A stretch of DNA of 37,671 bases from assembly GCF_030409335.1 (NCBI RefSeq), contig NZ_JAUFPN010000108.1:63848-101518 (forward strand). Reading direction: 5' to 3'. The notes under the pieces are model-generated. The model was given only the letters and a program-made list of their open reading frames with translations, was not told the DNA's origin and ran no database searches. The number at the start of each line of letters is the position of its first letter. Positions within the stretch are counted from its first letter, which is position 1. Below are positions 24,264 to 36,049 of this stretch, one piece after another. The position numbers and the translations under genes were made by a program. The stretch comes from Paeniroseomonas aquatica. Its GTDB lineage: Bacteria; Pseudomonadota; Alphaproteobacteria; Acetobacterales; Acetobacteraceae.

Positions 24264-25826
24264 TCAGGCCAGCACGGTATCCGCCGGCAGCGGGATGACG
24301 AGCTGCGGCAGCTCGGGGTCCATCGCCTCGCTGCCCTCGGCGCGGCGCTCGGCGAAGGTGAAGACGTCGTCCTGGATGTGCTGCGTGTCGGTGTTGCGCA
24401 GGATGATGTCGCTGAGGCCGCTGTGCCGGATCTGCTGCAGCGTCTCGGCGTCGAAGCCCTGGTTCTCGAACCACAGCCGGTCGCCGTCGCGGCTGCGCTC
24501 GAACTGGTCGGCGATGATGAGGCCGAAGGTCTCGCCGACGAAGGCGCCGGGCATGACCCGCTCGGCCAGGCCGCCGGTCCAGAGGTCGACCGCGTCCACC
24601 GAGCCGAAGGCCTGCTCCAGCGCCGCGACCGTGCCCTGGTCGTCGGTGATCTGGCAGAAGGCGGTATAGGGGTCGAGGTGCAGCGCCTCCCGCATCTCGT
24701 TCAGGTGCGGCAGGCCGAGGTCGCGGCCGCGCTGGATGTTGATGGCGGCGAGGTCGAGCCCGACCGGGGGGTCGAACAGGAAGTTGCGGAGGTCCTCGAC
24801 GATGCGGGCGTCCATCGCCTGCGACAGGTCGGAGGCGAGGTGGCGCAGCAGCCCGTCGGCCCCGCCGTCGGCGGCGAATTCGGCCGGCGTCAGGAAGAAG
24901 GTCTCGCGCAGCGAGATCTCGCCGGCGGGGTGGCCGTACTCGTCCAGCTTCTCGGTCCGCGGCGAGACGGTGGAATGGCCGAAGCGATAGGCGGCGCCGG
25001 CGAATTCGATGGCCATGCGGGGGTCGACGGCATCGTCGAAGCCCCGGTACTCGCCGGGCGCCAGGTCGCCGAGGAGGTGGGGCAGGAATTCCTGGTAGGT
25101 GATGTTCTGGATCTCGGCGGTGACGATGGCGCGGGCCATGTTGAAGACGGTGTCGCCGTCGAGGCAGGGGTTCCCGGCATAGAGGCGGTCGACCTGCCAG
25201 TTGTGCTCGCGGACGAAGAGCGTCTGCAGCGCGGTCAGCGAGGGGTTCTCGTCGGCGCGGCCGTCGCCGGCGATGTGGCCGAGCAGGCCGCCGGACTGGG
25301 CGGCATCCTCGCCGGTCGGGTCGACCGGGCCGACCGGCAGGTTGCGGCCTTCCGACATCAGCATGTGGCCGTCGGGGGCGCGCAGCCGGGCGGCGGTCGC
25401 CTCGGTCGAGCCATAGACCATGGAGCCGTCGATCCAGCCGGTGACGGCATTCACCGGGTCGCCGTTGGCGTCCACGTCGGCCCGGCTCATCGGGATGATG
25501 GTGCCGTCGGCGAAGACGGGGTCGCCCTTCGGGATGACGATGCTGATCGGCTGGCCGGTGCGGCTGTCGGCGGTCAGGTTGATGTCGTGGTCGATGAACT
25601 GGCCCCAGGCGTACATCATGCCGGAGAGGCCCTGCGGGTTCTCGATGTCCGCGGCGCCCTCGCCGACGACGACATTGCTGATGCTGCGGGGATTGGGGCC
25701 GTCGACCAGTCCGCGCTGGTCATCGGCGAAGTATTCGGGTGCCAGGCGCAGGAAGGCGGTATTGGTGACGTTGGTCAGCGGATTGCCGGGATCGTTGCCC
25801 GAGCCGTCGATACTGCGGTATTCCAT
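24264..25826 (-). CDS. Animal-type haem peroxidase (peroxidase-cyclooxygenase superfamily)
   Basis: A 520-residue haem peroxidase. The distal site WGQFIDHDINLT (74-85) carries the distal His80 and the calcium/haem-linked Asp79 equivalents of myeloperoxidase GQ-xDHD. The catalytic Arg lies in LFVREHNWQVDRL (near 215). The proximal His is in AAYRFGHSTVSP (near 290), and INIQRGRDLGLPHLNEMR (near 380) is a superfamily hallmark. It oxidises halides or organic donors with H2O2; the donor is unknown. There is no signal peptide, and the hemolysin-type calcium repeats found in many bacterial relatives are missing. ATG 25826 is chosen for the AGGAGAGAG upstream; a longer 30-residue extension reads as low-complexity leader. 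The 5' region contains an operator-like inverted repeat. Confidence 0.88.
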   Translation of the reverse strand: MEYRSIDGSGNDPGNPLTNVTNTAFLRLAPEYFADDQRGLVDGPNPRSISNVVVGEGAADIENPQGLSGMMYAWGQFIDHDINLTADSRTGQPISIVIPKGDPVFADGTIIPMSRADVDANGDPVNAVTGWIDGSMVYGSTEATAARLRAPDGHMLMSEGRNLPVGPVDPTGEDAAQSGGLLGHIAGDGRADENPSLTALQTLFVREHNWQVDRLYAGNPCLDGDTVFNMARAIVTAEIQNITYQEFLPHLLGDLAPGEYRGFDDAVDPRMAIEFAGAAYRFGHSTVSPRTEKLDEYGHPAGEISLRETFFLTPAEFAADGGADGLLRHLASDLSQAMDARIVEDLRNFLFDPPVGLDLAAINIQRGRDLGLPHLNEMREALHLDPYTAFCQITDDQGTVAALEQAFGSVDAVDLWTGGLAERVMPGAFVGETFGLIIADQFERSRDGDRLWFENQGFDAETLQQIRHSGLSDIILRNTDTQHIQDDVFTFAERRAEGSEAMDPELPQLVIPLPADTVLA

Positions 25827-25859
25827 GGACGCTTGTCTCTCTCCTGGACGAGAATACTG

Positions 25860-25877
25860 CCCCCGCGCGCGCGGGGG
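25860..25877. repeat. 18-bp perfect GC palindrome in the peroxidase leader
   Basis: CCCCCGCGCGCGCGGGGG is its own reverse complement and lies 34-51 bp upstream of the peroxidase ATG, downstream of the proposed promoter. In RNA it would form a hairpin in the 5' leader; alternating GC could also adopt Z-DNA. Confidence 0.6.
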
Positions 25878-25949
25878 CGGCCCTGCCACAGCCGGCCCGC
25901 CCGCGCCGGATGGCACGGGACGCGGGCTCAGGTCGGTCGAGTGTCCGGG

Positions 25950-27733: not shown

Positions 27734-28540
27734 ATGGATATGACCTCGGAAGGACGCCCCCCTGCCCCGCCCGGCTGGGCGGCGCTGCTGGCCCTGCGGG
27801 ACGCGCCCGGCGGGGCGGTGCCGGCGGCCGGGCCGCTGGCGGCGCTGTTCGGCCCGCTGCTGGCGCCGCCGGCCGCGGCCGACGGCTGCACCGTGGTGGG
27901 GCGGCTGGCGCAGACGCTGGACGGGCGGATCGCCACCGCCTCCGGCTCCTCGCAGTGGATCGGCGGGGCGGGCGACCTGCTGCATACCCACCGGCTGCGG
28001 GCGCTCTGCCATGCCGTCGTGGTCGGCGCCGGGACGGTGCGGCACGACGACCCGCGGCTGACCACGCGGGGCTGCCCAGGCCCCGATCCGGTGCGGGTGG
28101 TGCTGGATACCGACCGCCGGCTGGGCGCCGGGTACGGGGTGTTCCGCGAGGGGCCGCCGACCCTGCTGCTGGCCGCCGAGGACGCGCCGGGCGGCGACCG
28201 GCTCGGGCTGGCCGAGGTGGTGCGGCTGCCGCGCGATGCGGCGCATGGCGGGCTGGCGGTGCCGGCGATCCTGGCCGCGCTGGCCGCGCGCGGGCTGACG
28301 CGCCTCTTCGTCGAGGGCGGCGGCGTCACCGTCAGCCGCTTCCTGGCGGCGGGCTGCCTCGACCGGCTGCACGTGACGGTGGCGCCGGTGCTGCTCGGCT
28401 CCGGCATCCCGGCCTTCACCCTGCCGGAGGCGGCGCGCATCGCCGACGGGCTTCGCTTCGCCTGGACGGTGCACGACCTGGCGCCGGACGTGCTTTTCGA
28501 CATCGCGCTCGACCGGGTGCGGCCGGGGGTGTGTTCGTGA
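27734..28540 (+). CDS. RibD C-terminal-type reductase (DHFR fold), first gene of a pteridine-like operon
   Basis: A 268-residue NADPH-dependent reductase related to the C-terminal half of RibD, with no deaminase domain. Motifs are VVGRLAQTLDGRIATASGSSQWI (about 54-76), HAVVVGAGTVRHDDPRLTTR (about 93-112), FVEGGGVTVSRFLAAGCLDRLHV (near 194) and VAPVLLGSG (near 217). RibD proper has Lys at the start of the first motif where this has Arg. The family reduces ribosylamino-pyrimidines or folate-like pterins; this member's substrate is unknown. Residues 1-50 are a Pro/Ala-rich extension. ATG 27734 or 27740. The stop overlaps the next gene's GTG. Divergent from the chemoreceptor over 115 bp, where the operon promoter should lie. 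Confidence 0.85.
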   Translation: MDMTSEGRPPAPPGWAALLALRDAPGGAVPAAGPLAALFGPLLAPPAAADGCTVVGRLAQTLDGRIATASGSSQWIGGAGDLLHTHRLRALCHAVVVGAGTVRHDDPRLTTRGCPGPDPVRVVLDTDRRLGAGYGVFREGPPTLLLAAEDAPGGDRLGLAEVVRLPRDAAHGGLAVPAILAALAARGLTRLFVEGGGVTVSRFLAAGCLDRLHVTVAPVLLGSGIPAFTLPEAARIADGLRFAWTVHDLAPDVLFDIALDRVRPGVCS

Positions 28541-29502
28541 AGGCGCGCGCCCTGTGGTGCGTGGCGCCGGGGGTGGCCGAGCTGCGCGAGGAGACGCTGC
28601 CGCCGCCGGCCGAGGGCCAAGCGCTGGTCAGGGCGCTGGCGAGCGGCATCTCCCGCGGGACCGAGCGGCTGGTGCTGGCCGGGCGGGTGCCGGAGAGCCA
28701 GTGGCCGGCGATGCGGGCGCCGCTGATGGCCGGCGAATTCCCCTATCCCGTGAAGTACGGCTACGCCGCGGTCGGCATGGTGGAAGCGGGGCCGGCGGCG
28801 CTGCTGGGCCGCCGGGTCTTCTGCCTGCATCCGCACCAGGATCGCTTCCTCGCCCCGGCCGCGATGTGCGTGCCGGTGCCGGATGCGGTGCCCGACCGGC
28901 GCGCGGTGCTGGCGGCGAACATGGAGACCGCGGTCAACGTGCTCTGGGACGCGCGGCCGCTGGTCGGCGAGCGGGTGCTGGTGATCGGCGCCGGGGTGGT
29001 CGGGCTGCTGGTGGCGGCGCTGCTGGCCGGGGTGCCCGGGCTCGACCTCGCGGTCTGCGACATCGACCCCGGGCGGGCGGCGCTGGTGAACGCCCTGGGC
29101 GCGCGGTTCTGCGCGCCGGAGGAGGCGCCCGGGCAGCGCGACCTCGTCATCCATGCCAGCGCGGCGCCGGAGGGGCTGGTGCTGGCGCTCGGCCGGGCCG
29201 GCTTCGAGGGGCGGATCGTCGAGGCGAGCTGGTACGGCGACCGCGCCGTGACCCTGCCGCTGGGCGAGGCCTTCCACGCGCAGCGGCTGTCGATCGTCTC
29301 GACCCAGGTCGGGCAGGTCGCGCCGGCGATGCGCGGCCGGCGGACGCACGGGGAGCGGCTGGCGCTGGCGCTGCGCCTGCTCGAGGATCCGCGCCTCGAC
29401 GCGCTGCTGGCGCCGCCGGTCGCCTTCGCCGCATTGCCGGCGGCCTTGCCCGGGATATTGAATGGCCCGGCGGCGCACCCCTGCCCCACCGTCACCTACT
29501 GA
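28537..29502 (+). CDS. Medium-chain dehydrogenase/reductase without zinc ligands (BchC-like fold)
   Basis: A 321-residue MDR protein. The Rossmann motif is VLVIGAGVVGLLVAALLAG (about 147-165), followed by an acidic strand VCDIDPGR suited to NAD(H). The N-terminal catalytic domain reads ALASGISRGTERLVLAGRVP (near 30), where normal alcohol dehydrogenases have the zinc-binding Cys in GICGSD. Structural-zinc cysteines are absent too. The SGIS-GTE signature recalls BchC-type dehydrogenases. The GTG at 28537 is chosen because it overlaps the upstream TGA (GTGA). The PTPS-like gene starts 14 bp after its stop. It probably oxidises or reduces a side-chain hydroxyl or ketone of the pathway intermediate; the reaction is inferred from context. 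Confidence 0.82.
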   Translation: MKARALWCVAPGVAELREETLPPPAEGQALVRALASGISRGTERLVLAGRVPESQWPAMRAPLMAGEFPYPVKYGYAAVGMVEAGPAALLGRRVFCLHPHQDRFLAPAAMCVPVPDAVPDRRAVLAANMETAVNVLWDARPLVGERVLVIGAGVVGLLVAALLAGVPGLDLAVCDIDPGRAALVNALGARFCAPEEAPGQRDLVIHASAAPEGLVLALGRAGFEGRIVEASWYGDRAVTLPLGEAFHAQRLSIVSTQVGQVAPAMRGRRTHGERLALALRLLEDPRLDALLAPPVAFAALPAALPGILNGPAAHPCPTVTY

Positions 29503-29516
29503 GCGAGCGAGCGACC

Positions 29517-29918
29517 ATGTACAGCCTGACCGTCTGCGACCACATCATGGTGGCGCACAGCTTCCGCGGCGACGAATTCGGTCCCGCCCAGCGCCTGCAC
29601 GGCGCCACCTTCGCGGTGGAGGCGGAGTTCCGCGCCCCCGGCATCGATGCGCTCGGGCTGCTGGTGGACATCGGCCTGGCCAAGGTGGAACTGCGGAAGG
29701 CGCTCGATGGCCTCGACTACCGCAACCTCGACGGCGAGCCGGCCTTCGCCGGGGTGAACACCACCACCGAATTCCTCTGCTCGCACATCCATGGGCTGCT
29801 GGCGGCGGCACTGCGGGCGGGGAAGCTCGGGGCGCAGTCGGCCAACGTGACCGGGCTGAAGATCCTGCTGCGGGAAAGCCCGAATGCCTGGGCGGCCTTC
29901 GAGGGGCCGGTGGCGTGA
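29517..29918 (+). CDS. Divergent PTPS/QueD-family protein lacking canonical catalytic residues
   Basis: A 133-residue T-fold protein of the 6-pyruvoyl/6-carboxy-tetrahydropterin synthase family, by order of motifs. AHSF contains His14, GPAQRLHGATF (22-32) contains His28, LVDIG spans 49-53, LDYRNLD spans 66-72, NTTTEF spans 81-86, and LRESPNAW contains Glu120, the usual pterin-anchoring Glu. Family enzymes have Cys-x3-His-Gly-His and Asp-His. Here the Cys position is Ala24, the second HGH histidine is Ala30, and Asp67 is followed by Tyr68. So the nucleophile, the catalytic His and one of three zinc ligands are gone while the pterin site is kept. ATG 29517 follows a GAGC tetranucleotide run. 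Coupled to the glycosyltransferase by GTGA. It must have changed chemistry or a binding role. Confidence 0.82.
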   Translation: MYSLTVCDHIMVAHSFRGDEFGPAQRLHGATFAVEAEFRAPGIDALGLLVDIGLAKVELRKALDGLDYRNLDGEPAFAGVNTTTEFLCSHIHGLLAAALRAGKLGAQSANVTGLKILLRESPNAWAAFEGPVA

Positions 29919-31021
29919 CGGGGTCCGATGACCGGAGGGCGCAGGCGAAGCCGAGCACCGAAGGTCTGGATCGGGGCCAGGCCTTGCCGATTGCGCTGCT
30001 CGTGCCGGCGCCCTTCGGGACCATCTCCGGCGGCTACGGCTACGACCGGCGGCTGGTGGAGGGCTTCCGGGCGCTGGGCCAGGAGGTGACGGTCGTCGAG
30101 CTGGCGGGGCGGCATCCGCTGCCGGATGCGGCGGCGCTGGCGGCGGCGCGGGCGGCGCTGGACGGGGTGCCGGCGGGGGCGCGGATCATCCTCGACGGGC
30201 TGGGCCTGCCGGCCTTCGCGCCGCTGGCCGATGCGCTGGTCGCCCGCCGGGCGGTGGCGCTGATCCATCATCCGACGGCGATGGAGGCCGGGATCGGCGC
30301 CGATGCTGCGGCGGCGCTGCGGGCGACGGAGGCGGCGATGTTTCCGCGGCTGGCGCGGCTGGTGGTCTCCTCCGCCACGACGGGGCGGGAGCTGACGGCG
30401 GAATTCGGCGTGGCGCCGGAGCGGATCGGCGTGGTGGAGCCGGGGACCGACCCCGCGCCGCGGGCCCGCGGCTCGGGCGGGCCGGGCGTTGCCATCCTCT
30501 CGGTCGGCACGCTGATCCCGCGCAAGGGGCATGACGTGCTGCTGAAGGCCCTGGCGCGGCTGACCGATATCGACTGGACCCTGACCATCGCCGGCGCGGC
30601 GCGCGACGCGGTCTATGCCGATGGGCTGGCCGCGCTGGTGGAGGAGCTGGGGCTGGCGCAGCGGGTGCGCTTCGCCGGGGAGGTCTCCGGCGCGGCGCTC
30701 GAGGCGCTGTACGACCGCAGCGACGTCTTCGCCCTGGCGACCCATTGGGAGGGCTACGGCATGGCCGCGGCCGAGGCGCTGGCGCGCGGCCTGCCGGTCG
30801 CCGTCACCGCCGGCGGGGCGATCGCCGAGGTGGTGCCGGTCGAGGCCGGCTGCGTCTCGCCGCCCGGCGACGTCATGCTGCTGGCGCGGGCGATGCGGCG
30901 GGTGCTGTACGATGGCGGGATGCGCGCCGAGATGGCCGAGGCGGCCTGGGCGGCGGGGCAGCGGCTGCCGCGCTGGAGCGACCGGGCCGCGGCCTTCCTC
31001 GATGCGCTGGAGCAGGCCTGA
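29915..31021 (+). CDS. GT4-family glycosyltransferase
   Basis: A 368-residue retaining GT-B glycosyltransferase. The N-terminal domain starts PIALLVPAPFGTISGGYGYDRRLVEGF (about residues 25-51) with the acceptor-side glycine-rich turn. The C-terminal donor domain begins at AILSVGTLIPRKGHDVLLKAL (near 190). The nucleotide-sugar signature WEGYGMAAAEALARGLPV (near 275) has the E-x7-E motif. It would transfer a sugar from NDP-sugar or UDP/GDP donor; in this operon the acceptor is probably the small molecule made by the preceding enzymes, not lipid or polysaccharide. The start GTG at 29915 overlaps the PTPS-like stop; TTG 29984 just before the fold is an alternative. The stop overlaps the methyltransferase ATG by one base. 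Confidence 0.87.
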   Translation: MTGSDDRRAQAKPSTEGLDRGQALPIALLVPAPFGTISGGYGYDRRLVEGFRALGQEVTVVELAGRHPLPDAAALAAARAALDGVPAGARIILDGLGLPAFAPLADALVARRAVALIHHPTAMEAGIGADAAAALRATEAAMFPRLARLVVSSATTGRELTAEFGVAPERIGVVEPGTDPAPRARGSGGPGVAILSVGTLIPRKGHDVLLKALARLTDIDWTLTIAGAARDAVYADGLAALVEELGLAQRVRFAGEVSGAALEALYDRSDVFALATHWEGYGMAAAEALARGLPVAVTAGGAIAEVVPVEAGCVSPPGDVMLLARAMRRVLYDGGMRAEMAEAAWAAGQRLPRWSDRAAAFLDALEQA

Positions 31022-31920
31022 TGGCGGAGGAATTCGCGCTCGACTGGCTGGACCTGCGCGAGCCCTTCGATGCCATGGCGCGCGACACCGACCTTGCCGA
31101 TGCGCTGCTGGCGCGGCTGCCGGCGCGGCCGCGCTTCCTCGACCTCGGCGCCGGGACCGGCAGCCTGCTGCGCTTCCTGGCGCCGCGGCTGGGCCGGGCG
31201 CAGGTCTGGACCCTGGTGGACGCGGACCGCGAATTGCTGGAGGCGGCCTTCGACACCATCGCCGACCGCAGCGAGGCCATCGGCTACAAGGTGACCGTGC
31301 CGAACCGCCGCACCCTGCTGGTGCATGCCCCGGGCGGCGCCTGGCGGGTGGAGACGCTGGTCGCCGACCTGGCCGAGGCGCCGCGCGGGCTGCCGCTGCA
31401 CAGCGTGGACGCGGTGGTGTCCTCGGCGCTCTGCGACCTGGTCTCGCGGGACTGGGTCGGGCGGCTGGCGGCGGCGCTGCGGGTACCCTTCTACGCCGCG
31501 CTCTGCGTCACCGGGCGGGATCGCTTCACCCCGCCGCACCCGGCCGACCGGGTGGTGGCCGACGGCTTCCGCCGCGACCAGGGGCGGGACAAGGGCTTCG
31601 GCGGGGTGGCGCTGGGCGACCGGGCGCCGGCGGCGATCGCCGAGGCCTTCGGGGCGCGCGGCTTCGCGGTCAGCAGCGCGCCGAGCGACTGGGACGTCCG
31701 CAGCCGCGGCGCCATGCCGATGCCGGGGCTGCACGAGGCGGCCTCGCGCTTCCTGAGCGAGCTGGTGATGGGCCATGCCGAGGCGGCGCAGCGGCAGGAC
31801 CGGCGCGGCGACCAGCGGATCGGCGCCTGGCTGGAGGCGCGGCTGGAGCAGGTCGCGGCGCGGCGGCTGGCGGCACGGATCGGCCACCGCGACGTGCTGG
31901 CGCTGCCCCGGAGGACATAG
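31021..31920 (+). CDS. Class I SAM-dependent methyltransferase
   Basis: A 299-residue methyltransferase. Motif I FLDLGAGTGSLLRFLAP is near residues 39-55, and the acidic loop LVDADRELLEAAF is near 66-78. A variable cap and C-terminal helices (about 240-295) follow. The family name of the substrate cannot be read from the sequence. It closes the five-gene operon: its ATG overlaps the glycosyltransferase stop (TGATG). The likely role is methylation of the glycosylated product or of an earlier intermediate. Downstream the reading frame stops at 31918-31920 and the frameshifted GNAT remnant begins at once in the same frame. Confidence 0.87.
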   Translation: MAEEFALDWLDLREPFDAMARDTDLADALLARLPARPRFLDLGAGTGSLLRFLAPRLGRAQVWTLVDADRELLEAAFDTIADRSEAIGYKVTVPNRRTLLVHAPGGAWRVETLVADLAEAPRGLPLHSVDAVVSSALCDLVSRDWVGRLAAALRVPFYAALCVTGRDRFTPPHPADRVVADGFRRDQGRDKGFGGVALGDRAPAAIAEAFGARGFAVSSAPSDWDVRSRGAMPMPGLHEAASRFLSELVMGHAEAAQRQDRRGDQRIGAWLEARLEQVAARRLAARIGHRDVLALPRRT

Positions 31921-32360
31921 GCGGAGCTACCACCGGGGCCGACCCTCTCCATCGAGGGCGAGCCGGCCAGCGCGGATGTCGAGGCGCTGCCGGATGGGCT
32001 GGAGGCCTTCAACGAACGGCGATGGCCGGGGCACCCGCCCTGGGAGCCGCTGGCGCTGCTGGTCGGGCGCGGCGGCACGGTGCCGGGTGGTCCGTCGGGG
32101 AGGGCTATGCCGGCTGGGTCTTCATCCGCTGCTTCCGGCCGGATGAGAGCATCCGCCGGCTCGGCCCCGGGCGGCAGGTGATCGCCGCGGCCGGGCAGCG
32201 GGCGCGGGAGCGTGGCTGCCACGGCATCTGCGTGGATACCTTCAGCATCCAGGCGCCGGCGTTCTGCCGGACGCAGGGCCATGGGGAATTCGGCCGGCGG
32301 CCCTATCCGCCGGAGGGGGAGCGGATCTGGCCGCGGAAGATGCTCCGGCACGGCGGCTGA
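31921..32360 (+). pseudogene. Frameshifted GNAT-family N-acetyltransferase remnant
   Basis: The conceptual protein is split between two frames. The N-terminal part, in the frame directly following the methyltransferase stop, reads LSIEGEPASADVEALPDGLEAFN. It reaches LALLVGRGGTV at about 32075. The rest lies in the next frame as SVGEGYAGWVFIRCFRPDESI, then ERGCHGICVDTFSIQAPAFCR, ending at the TGA at 32358. The join is near 32085-32105. No start codon precedes the first part. The acetyl-CoA loop is degenerate (RRLGPGRQV in place of R/Q-x-x-G-x-G/A). It looks like a GNAT gene that lost its start and suffered a one- or two-base indel. Confidence 0.7.
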
Positions 32361-33962: not shown

Positions 33963-34139
33963 GGAATCCCCCGGCCCCACCCTGTACGGGGATCAGCCTC
34001 GCCGCAAGGACGGGGAAGGACGATGCCGGACCGGCGGGTGAACCGCGGCGCCCCGGATGTGCTTCTGCCGCAGGCGCTTGACCGCGCGACCCACCCGGGG
34101 GACGACCCTCGCCGGGCCGCCGCAACAAGGGAGAGAACC

Positions 34140-35417
34140 ATGCCATTGCTCGGCTGCATCGCCGACGACTTCACGGGCGCCACCGACCTGGCGAATACGC
34201 TGGTCAAGGGCGGCATGACCGCCGTGCAGGTGATCGGCGTGCCCACGGGGCCCTTGCCGGAGGCGGATGCGATCATCGTCGCGCTGAAGTCCCGCACCTC
34301 CCCGGCGCGGGAGGCGGTGGCCGAGAGCCTGGCCGCCTGCGAGGCGCTGCTGGCGGCCGGCGCGAAGCAGATCTTCTTCAAGTACTGCTCCACCTTCGAC
34401 AGCACCGAGGCGGGGAACATCGGGCCGGTGGCGGATGCGCTGGTCCAGCGGCTCGGCTGCGGCTTCGCCATCGCCAACCCGGCCTTCCCGACCAACGGCC
34501 GGACCGTCTTCCAGGGGCATCTCTTCGTCGGCGACAAGCTGCTGAACGAAAGCGGGATGGAGAACCACCCGCTGACGCCGATGAAGGATGCCAACCTGGT
34601 GCGCGTGCTGGGCCGGCAGACCGGCGGCACGGTGAAGCTGATCCCCTTCGCGGTGGTCGAGCAGGGCGTGACCATCCTGCGCCACACTATGACCGGCCTC
34701 AAGGAAAGCGGCTGGCGCTACGCCATCGTCGATGCCGTCACCGACGCGCACCTGCTGGCGATCGGCGAGGCGGTGGCCGACCATGCGCTGGTCACCGGCG
34801 GCTCGGGCGTGGCGATGGGGCTGCCGGCGAACTTCCGCGCCAAGGGGCTGCTGCCGGACCGTGGCGAGGCGGCCGCCGCCCTGCCGCCGATGGCCGGGCC
34901 GGCGGCGGTGCTGGCCGGCTCCTGCTCGCGCGCGACCATGGGGCAGATCGGCTATGCCCGGGACCACGCCCATACGCTGGAGCTCGACGTGCTGGCGACG
35001 CCCGACGCGGCGGCGCTGCAGGCCGAGGCGCTGGCCTGGGCCGAGGGCAAGCTGGGCGACGCGCCCATCGTCATCGCGGCCTCGGCGCCGCCGGAGAAGG
35101 TGGCGGCCCTGCAGCGGAAGCTGGGGCGCGAAGCGGCGGGCGCCCTGGTCGAGGATACGCTCGCCGGCATCGCCGCGGCGCTGGTGGCGCGCGGGGTGAC
35201 GCGGCTGGTGGTCGCCGGCGGCGAGACCTCGGGCGCCGTCGTCTCGCGGCTCGGCGTCACGGCGTTGCGGATCGGGCCGGAAATCGACCCGGGCGTGCCC
35301 TGGACCTATGCCGAGTCCGGCTCCGCCGGGGGTGCGGAGCATCCCGGGCTGCACCTCGCGCTGAAGTCCGGCAACTTCGGCGCGCGCGACTTTTTCCTGA
35401 AGGCCTTCGGCGTATGA
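34140..35417 (+). CDS. otnK: 3-oxo-tetronate kinase OtnK (four-carbon acid sugar kinase family)
   Basis: A 425-residue kinase of the DUF1537/four-carbon acid sugar kinase family. It phosphorylates 3-oxo-tetronate (L-threonate- or D-erythronate-derived) at O4 with ATP. The N-terminal domain opens MPLLGCIADDFTGATDLANT (residues 1-20), the diagnostic DDFTG substrate site. KQIFFKYCSTFDSTEAGNIG (near 79) and NPAFPTNGRTVFQGHLFV (near 117) follow. The nucleotide domain ends with LVVAGGETSGAVVSRLGV (near 358) and the terminal LKSGNFG. The ATG at 34140 has GGGAGAG upstream; an in-frame ATG 39 codons earlier gives no family match. The otnC start overlaps the stop by four bases. The dehydrogenase that would form the substrate is not in the window. 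Confidence 0.92.
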   Translation: MPLLGCIADDFTGATDLANTLVKGGMTAVQVIGVPTGPLPEADAIIVALKSRTSPAREAVAESLAACEALLAAGAKQIFFKYCSTFDSTEAGNIGPVADALVQRLGCGFAIANPAFPTNGRTVFQGHLFVGDKLLNESGMENHPLTPMKDANLVRVLGRQTGGTVKLIPFAVVEQGVTILRHTMTGLKESGWRYAIVDAVTDAHLLAIGEAVADHALVTGGSGVAMGLPANFRAKGLLPDRGEAAAALPPMAGPAAVLAGSCSRATMGQIGYARDHAHTLELDVLATPDAAALQAEALAWAEGKLGDAPIVIAASAPPEKVAALQRKLGREAAGALVEDTLAGIAAALVARGVTRLVVAGGETSGAVVSRLGVTALRIGPEIDPGVPWTYAESGSAGGAEHPGLHLALKSGNFGARDFFLKAFGV

Positions 35418-36049
35418 GCGCCGAGGCGGATCTCCGCGAGGCGATCGCGGCGCATGGGCGGCTGCTGTTCGGCCGGGGATTCTCGGTCGGCTCGGCCGGG
35501 AACATCAGCGTGCGGCTGGAGGATGGCTTCCTCATCACCCCGACCAACTCCTGCCTCGGCCGGCTGGATCCGGCGCGGATCAGCAAGCTGGACGGGCAGT
35601 ACCGGCACGTCTCGGGTGATGCGCCCTCGAAGGAGGTCTTCATGCACCGCGCCTTCCTGGCGACGCGGCCGGAAGCGGGGGCGGTGGTGCACCTGCACTC
35701 GACCCATGCGACCGCGATCGCCTGCCTCGCCGCGCCGGGCGAGGCGGCGCCGATCCCGCCGCTGACGCCCTATTTCGTCATGCGGGTCGGCCGCAGCCTG
35801 CCGGTGGTGCGCTACTACCGGCCGGGCGACGCGGCGATGGAGCCGGCGATCGCCGCCGCGGCGAAGGATGCCCGCGCCGTGCTGCTGGCGAACCACGGGC
35901 CGGTGGTCTCCGGCCGGACCCTCGACGACGCGGTCTATGCGGCGGAGGAGCTGGAGGAGGCGGCGAAGCTGGCGCTGCTGCTGCGCGGCCAGCCGGCCCG
36001 CACCCTGACGCCCGCCGAAGTGGACGACCTGCTCGGCACCTTCGGCTGA
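35414..36049 (+). CDS. otnC: 3-oxo-tetronate 4-phosphate decarboxylase OtnC (class II aldolase fold)
   Basis: A 211-residue class II aldolase/adducin-type lyase, cytoplasmic and metal-dependent. It should act directly after OtnK, decarboxylating 3-oxo-tetronate 4-phosphate to dihydroxyacetone phosphate. Seen are FSVGSAGNISVRLEDGFLITP (about 23-43, phosphate-binding), DAPSKEVFMHRAFLATRP (catalytic Glu near 73), the zinc motif VVHLHSTHATAIAC (two His near 92-97) and the third zinc His in LLANHGPVVSG near 157. The ATGA overlap with otnK shows a coupled pair. An L-fuculose-phosphate-aldolase role is less likely because of the kinase neighbour. Length matches the OtnC family. Confidence 0.9.
   Translation: MSAEADLREAIAAHGRLLFGRGFSVGSAGNISVRLEDGFLITPTNSCLGRLDPARISKLDGQYRHVSGDAPSKEVFMHRAFLATRPEAGAVVHLHSTHATAIACLAAPGEAAPIPPLTPYFVMRVGRSLPVVRYYRPGDAAMEPAIAAAAKDARAVLLANHGPVVSGRTLDDAVYAAEELEEAAKLALLLRGQPARTLTPAEVDDLLGTFG

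Follow-up and report, generated by a model that had tools for sequence, protein, structure and literature searches.

The cyanobacterial biopterin glucoside pathway runs through GTP cyclohydrolase I (GCH I), a type II 6-pyruvoyltetrahydropterin synthase (PTPS-II), a reductase and a glycosyltransferase. Most biological pterins derive from GCH I, according to the accessible part of a 2026 review (PMC13259868). A different subfamily of COG0720, PTPS-IV, is named in PMC5041015, and the portion of PMC5445326 available to us gives it the signature FGPAQ and a neighbourhood with PF00925 and PF01872; the PF00925 node is called FolE2 there, PF00925 being the GTP cyclohydrolase II (GCH II) family. Here we consider a five-gene operon with a PTPS-IV gene at its centre, found in a 37,671 nucleotide stretch of the Paeniroseomonas aquatica genome (contig NZ_JAUFPN010000108.1, positions 63,848 to 101,518, forward strand), the whole of which is called the window below. 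The gene set is of the known PTPS-IV kind, uncharacterised as far as the open-access literature shows, and probably builds a methylated, sugar-bearing small molecule from a GTP-derived precursor of vitamin B2. More specifically, and at about an even chance, we read these genes as a compact version, found in Acetobacteraceae, of a widespread PTPS-IV cluster for a GTP-derived, methylated and glycosylated molecule of the pteridine type, with a 2-amino-4-oxo-pyrimidine core.

The operon and its conservation

The five genes occupy 27734-31920 of the window.

27734-28540, + strand: RibD_C reductase (2,5-diamino-6-ribosylaminopyrimidinone-phosphate reductase-like), ATG start, 268 aa; PF01872, E 3.8e-38
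28537-29502, + strand: zinc-less medium-chain dehydrogenase/reductase (MDR), BchC-like, GTG start, 321 aa; TIGR01202 bchC, E 5.7e-15, below cut-off
29517-29918, + strand: PTPS-IV (COG0720 subfamily), 133 aa; PF01242, E 9.5e-20; FGPAQ at residues 21-25
29915-31021, + strand: family 4 (GT4) glycosyltransferase, GTG start, 368 aa; PF00534, E 2.6e-31
31021-31920, + strand: class I S-adenosylmethionine-dependent methyltransferase, 299 aa; PF13649, E 7.7e-7 (a generic domain)

RibD_C and MDR overlap by 4 bp, a 14-bp gap separates MDR from PTPS, PTPS and GT4 overlap by 4 bp, and GT4 and the methyltransferase by 1 bp. An earlier sequence-only reading of the window had placed the genes in this way, with PTPS and RibD-type reductases working on GTP-derived rings and the MDR, glycosyltransferase and methyltransferase as tailoring enzymes, and coordinates and Pfam/NCBIfam families bear out the layout. 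It had also taken them as a single coupled unit of biosynthesis and had set a neighbourhood search as the check on this, with conservation confined to close relatives as the outcome that would speak against it.

PTPS relatives were sought in 84,980 species genomes, giving at least 581 confirmed. Plasmid records with such relatives number 20, from Alphaproteobacteria, Gammaproteobacteria and Actinomycetota; with the MDR as query they number 32 and now include haloarchaea. Phage records gave no PTPS match at E 1e-5. When genomes are drawn evenly the PTPS is carried by 40 of 337 in Alphaproteobacteria (the window's genome included) and 32 of 253 genera, around one in eight, and by 16 of 346 in Actinomycetota (the centre genome included, six being distant matches). 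The PTPS-bearing loci that were read come to 154, with no identical pair of PTPS/MDR ends among them; 80 genome-derived loci are best matches, mostly from Acetobacteraceae, and the even draws contribute 39 and 15. Flanks reach about 10 kb at most and are shorter in some, and absence thus means absence from the stretch. Family profiles were built from L004-L103 and the window, and only the 54 loci L119-L172 are independent of them. The haloarchaeal locus L008 has no PTPS match and stands outside the 154.

A same-strand MDR gene lies just upstream (under 900 bases, stop to stop) at 144 of the 154 loci and a GT4 gene just downstream (under 1500 bases) at 138, with RibD_C upstream on the same strand at 71 and on the opposite strand at 27. 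For the 54 evenly drawn loci the corresponding figures are 51, 50, 17 and 20. Anywhere in the stretch, MDR is present at 147 of the 154, GT4 at 142, the methyltransferase at 122, RibD_C at 113 and RibA at 42, or 41 without L144, a weak profile match lacking the zinc Cys; the 39 evenly drawn alphaproteobacterial loci give 38, 37, 34, 31 and 14 (13 without L144). Because MDR and GT4 neighbour the PTPS at most of the 154 loci the grouping is not chance, and the case is strong that the five genes are one conserved functional unit and not a local accident. The order MDR-PTPS-GT4 recurs in Alphaproteobacteria, Gammaproteobacteria and Actinomycetota, and in haloarchaea too with a divergent PTPS, so that conservation extends well beyond close relatives.

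Two Streptomyces plasmids (L010, L011) carry a PTPS-IV-like gene without MDR, GT4 or methyltransferase genes within 9 kb, and have MEKHLA-domain and cupin genes nearby.

In most neighbourhoods read the MDR, PTPS, GT4 and methyltransferase genes are consecutive (two records are unannotated), and it is the surroundings that vary by group, with RibD_C, RibA, CDP-alcohol phosphatidyltransferase, creatininase, flippase-like, sulfatase-like, FkbM and cytochrome b561 genes. Some of these would suit a membrane-anchored phospho-glyco-lipid with the GTP-derived ring as its head group, completed in other groups by the phosphatidyltransferase (in 44 of the 154 stretches), the flippase-like LPG_synthase_TM (in 28) and sulfatase-like proteins (in 18, by a match below cut-off). 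None of them is near the window copy, however, nor labelled at L016-L073 and L075, which are mostly Acetobacteraceae, and the cluster-type phosphatidyltransferase is not found among the three PF01066 genes of the P. aquatica genome, which give no BLAST match to it; the lipid has a very slim chance of being the product.

The PTPS-IV protein

The window protein belongs to the PTPS fold family, with 71.2 bits against PF01242 for a gathering cut-off of 22.4, and so the homologue named by the sequence-only reading stands as such; what does not carry over are the motifs of tetrahydrobiopterin (BH4) and queuosine enzymes. The CxxxxxHGH of PTPS-II, the CxxxHGH of PTPS-I/QueD and the three zinc His are not in the window protein, which reads FGPAQRLHGAT. 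FGPAQ is present in 90 of the 100 family members read. The PF01872 neighbour expected of PTPS-IV adjoins in the window and is in 113 of the 154 stretches, and the PF00925 neighbour is missing from the window and, at 41 of 154 loci, is frequent but not required. By these features the window PTPS is assigned to subfamily PTPS-IV. A profile of the family (A1) has a match of E 8.6e-67 to the Streptomyces coelicolor protein SCO6650, whose structure 3d7j was deposited without a characterised function.

His14, His28, Asp51, Glu85 and Glu120 are invariant over the 152 to 154 members aligned, the two glutamates in 154 of 154. Ala takes the place of the third zinc His in 140 of 153 members, and Tyr that of the catalytic His in 139 of 154, the roles being those of canonical PTPS which we assume for the aligned positions. 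Six haloarchaeal cluster PTPS (L015, L099-L103) lack FGPAQ and keep HxH, so that not every PTPS of the gene set is without the third zinc His. If an invariant glutamate is, as we presume, the anchor of the pterin ring, PTPS-IV has the pattern of an enzyme that would have retained binding of a 2-amino-4-oxo ring while its chemistry changed.

Cyclohydrolases and the precursor

The earlier reading saw neither GCH I nor GCH II in the window, and rightly: there is no PF00925 match on its contig, all three PF00925 places of the genome being on other contigs, and a BLAST search of the window with the FolE of the same genome as query turns up no GCH I. It also named co-occurrence with cyclohydrolase genes as something to check. 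A cyclohydrolase does travel with it, in the form of GCH II (41 of 154 loci, or 42 as counted with L144, which is not a real GCH II and is excluded from the residue counts below) or a haloarchaeal GCH III, and not of GCH I, for which FolE-type genes are near a single locus of the 154, by a weak match (BLAST with a single query; FolE2 was not searched).

A conventional GCH I route, in which the PTPS would use dihydroneopterin triphosphate on the way to pterins of the BH4 glucoside or limipterin kind, has going for it the likeness of GT4, PTPS and dehydrogenase to the cyanobacterial BH4-glucoside set and the FolE of the P. aquatica genome (recognised by reading). It is nonetheless very unlikely given the 1 against 41 of 154 loci for FolE-type GCH I and GCH II and the missing PTPS-II motif. 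Since the set is accompanied by GCH II, or in some haloarchaea GCH III, and not by GCH I, a diaminopyrimidine of the riboflavin type is a more likely precursor than dihydroneopterin triphosphate. The limipterin and biopterin glucoside analogy drawn earlier survives at most as a product class, its GCH I route not being indicated by the neighbourhoods.

Where the E. coli enzyme has Tyr105, the GCH II of the loci has Tyr (29), Met (8) or His (4). Creatininase-family genes are in the stretch of every one of the 12 Met/His loci, against 4 of the 29 with Tyr (Fisher 2.3e-7, uncorrected for kinship), and because all of the Met/His type come from Actinomycetota such values overstate independence. The loci with Met/His GCH II beside creatininase-family genes are L006, L078, L080, L087, L088, L096, L158-L161, L163 and L164. 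Spoonamore and colleagues are said to have found in 2006 that the Met-type GCH II SCO6655 stops at the formylated pyrimidine. Among eight haloarchaeal loci a GCH III-type gene is in three (L008, L015 and L102; PF05165 was tested on L008) and a creatininase gene in one (L014). In Sinorhizobium the creatininase-family BrbF removes the formyl group from the GCH III product, leaving the same riboflavin-type diaminopyrimidine (PMC9478397). The cluster creatininases, of which two were scanned with all model matches below cut-off, might likewise deformylate the GCH II or GCH III product. GCH II, Met/His GCH II with creatininase, and GCH III would then converge on 2,5-diamino-6-ribosylaminopyrimidinone phosphate.

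As to the P. aquatica genome, its three PF00925 places are on C91 (beside RibD), on C61 (weak) and on C14. The C91 domain (L105) lacks the three zinc Cys in the aligned region. The C14 protein has the zinc Cys and the catalytic Tyr, with 55% identity over 195 residues to the GCH II of the Palleronia cluster, and judged by these residues would be able to supply the operon precursor. RibD_C is present in the genome only as the RibD on C91 and the window copy, and creatininase-family genes number three.

A proposed pathway

The RibD_C protein is above cut-off for PF01872 and below it for the NCBIfam models TIGR00227 (129.1 of 150.15 bits) and TIGR01508 (100.6 of 186.45 bits). Its best solved relatives are 6p8c, RibD and the MjRED-type 2azn, and the motifs HxHRxRA, TxxxDxPxLxxR and EGG are common to six cluster members in an alignment. 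By its scores it belongs to the family of the riboflavin reductases but is not typical of them. No Pfam model matches the MDR at E 0.001; its nearest NCBIfam model is bchC, which 16 of 16 aligned cluster MDRs match. In its alignment SGISRGTE stands where GxCGxDxH is expected and there is no GHE, these being the zinc-ligand motifs of classical alcohol dehydrogenases, so that it appears zinc-less as first read. The better solved relatives of the MDR profile (A3) are butanediol, sorbitol, threonine, xylitol and galactitol-phosphate dehydrogenases, matched mostly over residues 105-230, the coenzyme-binding part, and because of these relatives the MDR likely oxidises a secondary alcohol. The GT4 protein is nearest among solved sequences to 6kih, 3c4q and 7qsg (D-inositol 3-phosphate glycosyltransferase); the methyltransferase has no strong solved relative.

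Put together, a GCH II encoded elsewhere in the genome would make 2,5-diamino-6-ribosylaminopyrimidinone 5'-phosphate, as suggested by the neighbouring genes of relatives. The dedicated RibD_C would then reduce ribose to ribityl, in keeping with its family, and the MDR may turn one of the side chain's secondary hydroxyls into a ketone. Condensation of the ketone with the 5-amino group, processing of the side chain by PTPS-IV, or both, might give a dihydropterin-like ring, which is the weakest step, and the methyltransferase and GT4 would, by family, decorate it. A glycosylated pteridine-like product, reached by GCH II and not by the GCH I chemistry of the biopterin glucosides, is plausible; it may be a pterin and may itself carry the sugar. 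The sequence-only reading, which had such a product in mind, is on the whole partly supported.

A broader proposal is that of a second pterin route in bacteria and archaea, independent of GCH I, where GCH II (or GCH III and a formamidase) would lead by the diaminopyrimidine to a methylated pterin glycoside. RibD_C would reduce C1' of the ribose and the MDR oxidise C2', the two together amounting to the Amadori step of GCH I; ring closure through the 5-amino group would yield a dihydroneopterin-type phosphate, from which PTPS-IV, the methyltransferase and GT4 could make a dedicated methylated pterin glycoside. As a whole we regard this as distinctly unlikely.

Several observations weigh against the pteridine-type scheme. 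Only the 41 loci have a GCH II in the stretch, and at 4 of the 8 haloarchaeal loci both GCH III and creatininase are missing from it. In the NCBIfam scan of the two cluster creatininases, MftE and creatininase models come out ahead of ArfB, all of them below cut-off. The MDR match to bchC (TIGR01202) is at 55.2 bits for a cut-off of 291.25. The C14 GCH II, which is not near the operon, may simply be the riboflavin enzyme, the C91 domain lacking the zinc Cys, and is therefore no evidence for the operon. With the third zinc His and the catalytic His lost in most PTPS-IV the chemistry need not be PTPS chemistry, and no metabolite is known for the gene set. Finally, RibD_C is in the stretch at 29 of 29 loci with Tyr-type GCH II and at 1 of 12 with the Met/His type, where the MDR stays, and so the RibD_C and MDR steps are not an obligatory linked pair.

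This trade-off between RibD_C and GCH II type is the main puzzle left. In eight genomes with the Met/His type a six-member RibD_C profile gives best scores of 75 to 103 bits, and in the same search 100.6 for the Micromonospora-type cluster gene of G589 and 304.9 for that of G077, some 62 kb from PTPS-IV; because the G589 cluster gene itself scores only 100.6, the eight genomes may or may not have an unlinked dedicated enzyme. No second reductase replacing RibD_C was found among the gene families that recur at 4 or more of 18 actinobacterial loci, with genes called by a simple codon-bias gene caller. An F420-dependent oxidoreductase is annotated nearby at L006 and at no other of these loci.

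The product might not be a pterin at all. It could instead be a glycosylated and methylated ribityl-diaminopyrimidine, or a lumazine or other ring, with PTPS-IV performing another reaction: the companion genes of the set indicate a diaminopyrimidine precursor and nothing beyond it, and most PTPS-IV have lost the canonical active-site residues. The glutamate that we take as the pterin anchor is on the other hand kept in 154 of 154, and lumazine synthase is not labelled in the annotated clusters read (no systematic search was made), so that we think this outcome unlikely, if worth serious attention. The first committed precursor of a widespread, uncharacterised gene set is now predictable, and if the product is a pterin its origin would be at the riboflavin branch point. 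The Met/His-type GCH II are also candidate enzymes for making the formylated intermediate, whose source in bacteria is left open in PMC9478397.

Coenzyme F420

PTPS-IV is stated to be involved in F420 synthesis in the part of PMC5041015 available to us, which cites unpublished data. That PTPS-IV and its cluster serve F420 biosynthesis would sit well with the FO synthase of the P. aquatica genome (over the family cut-off) and its CofD- and CofE-like genes, recognised by reading, with the presence of the cluster in haloarchaea, and with two genomes from a single genus (G295 on C10, G375 on C132) in which some 9 kb separate FO synthase and PTPS-IV. Co-occurrence lends no support in either of two tests. 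In the even alphaproteobacterial sample FO synthase (E at most 1e-80) is in 9 of the 40 genomes that carry PTPS-IV, compared with 44 of the 297 that do not (Fisher p 0.25), and in a second set, hand-chosen from the 80 best-match genome loci, in 17 of 49 carriers. With most carriers examined being without it, the published claim is unsupported here and the F420 role seems extremely improbable.

Genes around the operon

To the left of the operon, on the opposite strand, are a PAS/MCP chemoreceptor gene and, adjoining it, a haem peroxidase gene; to the right are a major facilitator superfamily (MFS) transporter gene on the opposite strand and then a sugar-acid kinase and aldolase pair. All of these are outside the operon as counted.

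24264-25916, - strand: haem peroxidase, animal-type; PF03098, E 8.3e-133
31936-32360, + strand: two-frame pieces directly past the operon, neither with a Pfam match
34023-36049, + strand: SBD_N/NBD_C sugar-acid kinase, then class II aldolase, with the MFS gene between the pair and the operon

The pieces at 31936-32360 resemble, we presume, a decayed acetyltransferase. In the flanks of 38 representative loci, the window included, the sugar-acid kinase family is found at 7 and class II aldolase at 5, and the pair is possibly a lineage-wide neighbour of the gene set.

Comparison with known systems

A search of the open-access literature (most subscription papers were outside its scope) found neither a product nor a full description of the cluster. 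The window operon is like the published PTPS-IV, as far as the accessible part of PMC5445326 describes it, in FGPAQ, in the adjoining RibD_C and in the GCH II near relatives, whereas the core of MDR, PTPS, GT4 and methyltransferase and the creatininase and GCH III alternatives are not described in the portions available of PMC5041015 and PMC5445326. The match of the PTPS profile to S. coelicolor SCO6650 runs over nearly the full length of that protein. On the S. fungicidicus plasmid (L006) the set comprises a CDP-alcohol transferase, MDR, PTPS-IV, GT4, methyltransferase, creatininase and a Met-type GCH II; compared with this Streptomyces form the window has RibD_C and is without creatininase, CDP-alcohol transferase and GCH II alongside.

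With the cyanobacterial biopterin glucoside pathway the operon has in common a PTPS fold, a dehydrogenase and a glycosyltransferase, but there is no GCH I neighbour and no PTPS-II motif here, and GCH II and RibD_C are found instead. The early steps of archaeal riboflavin and F420 synthesis (GCH III, formamide hydrolase and reductase), together with Sinorhizobium BrbF, imply the same first intermediates as those proposed here. The conserved core is without the riboflavin and FO synthase genes of those pathways, and from the shared intermediates the cluster continues with MDR, PTPS-IV, GT4 and methyltransferase.

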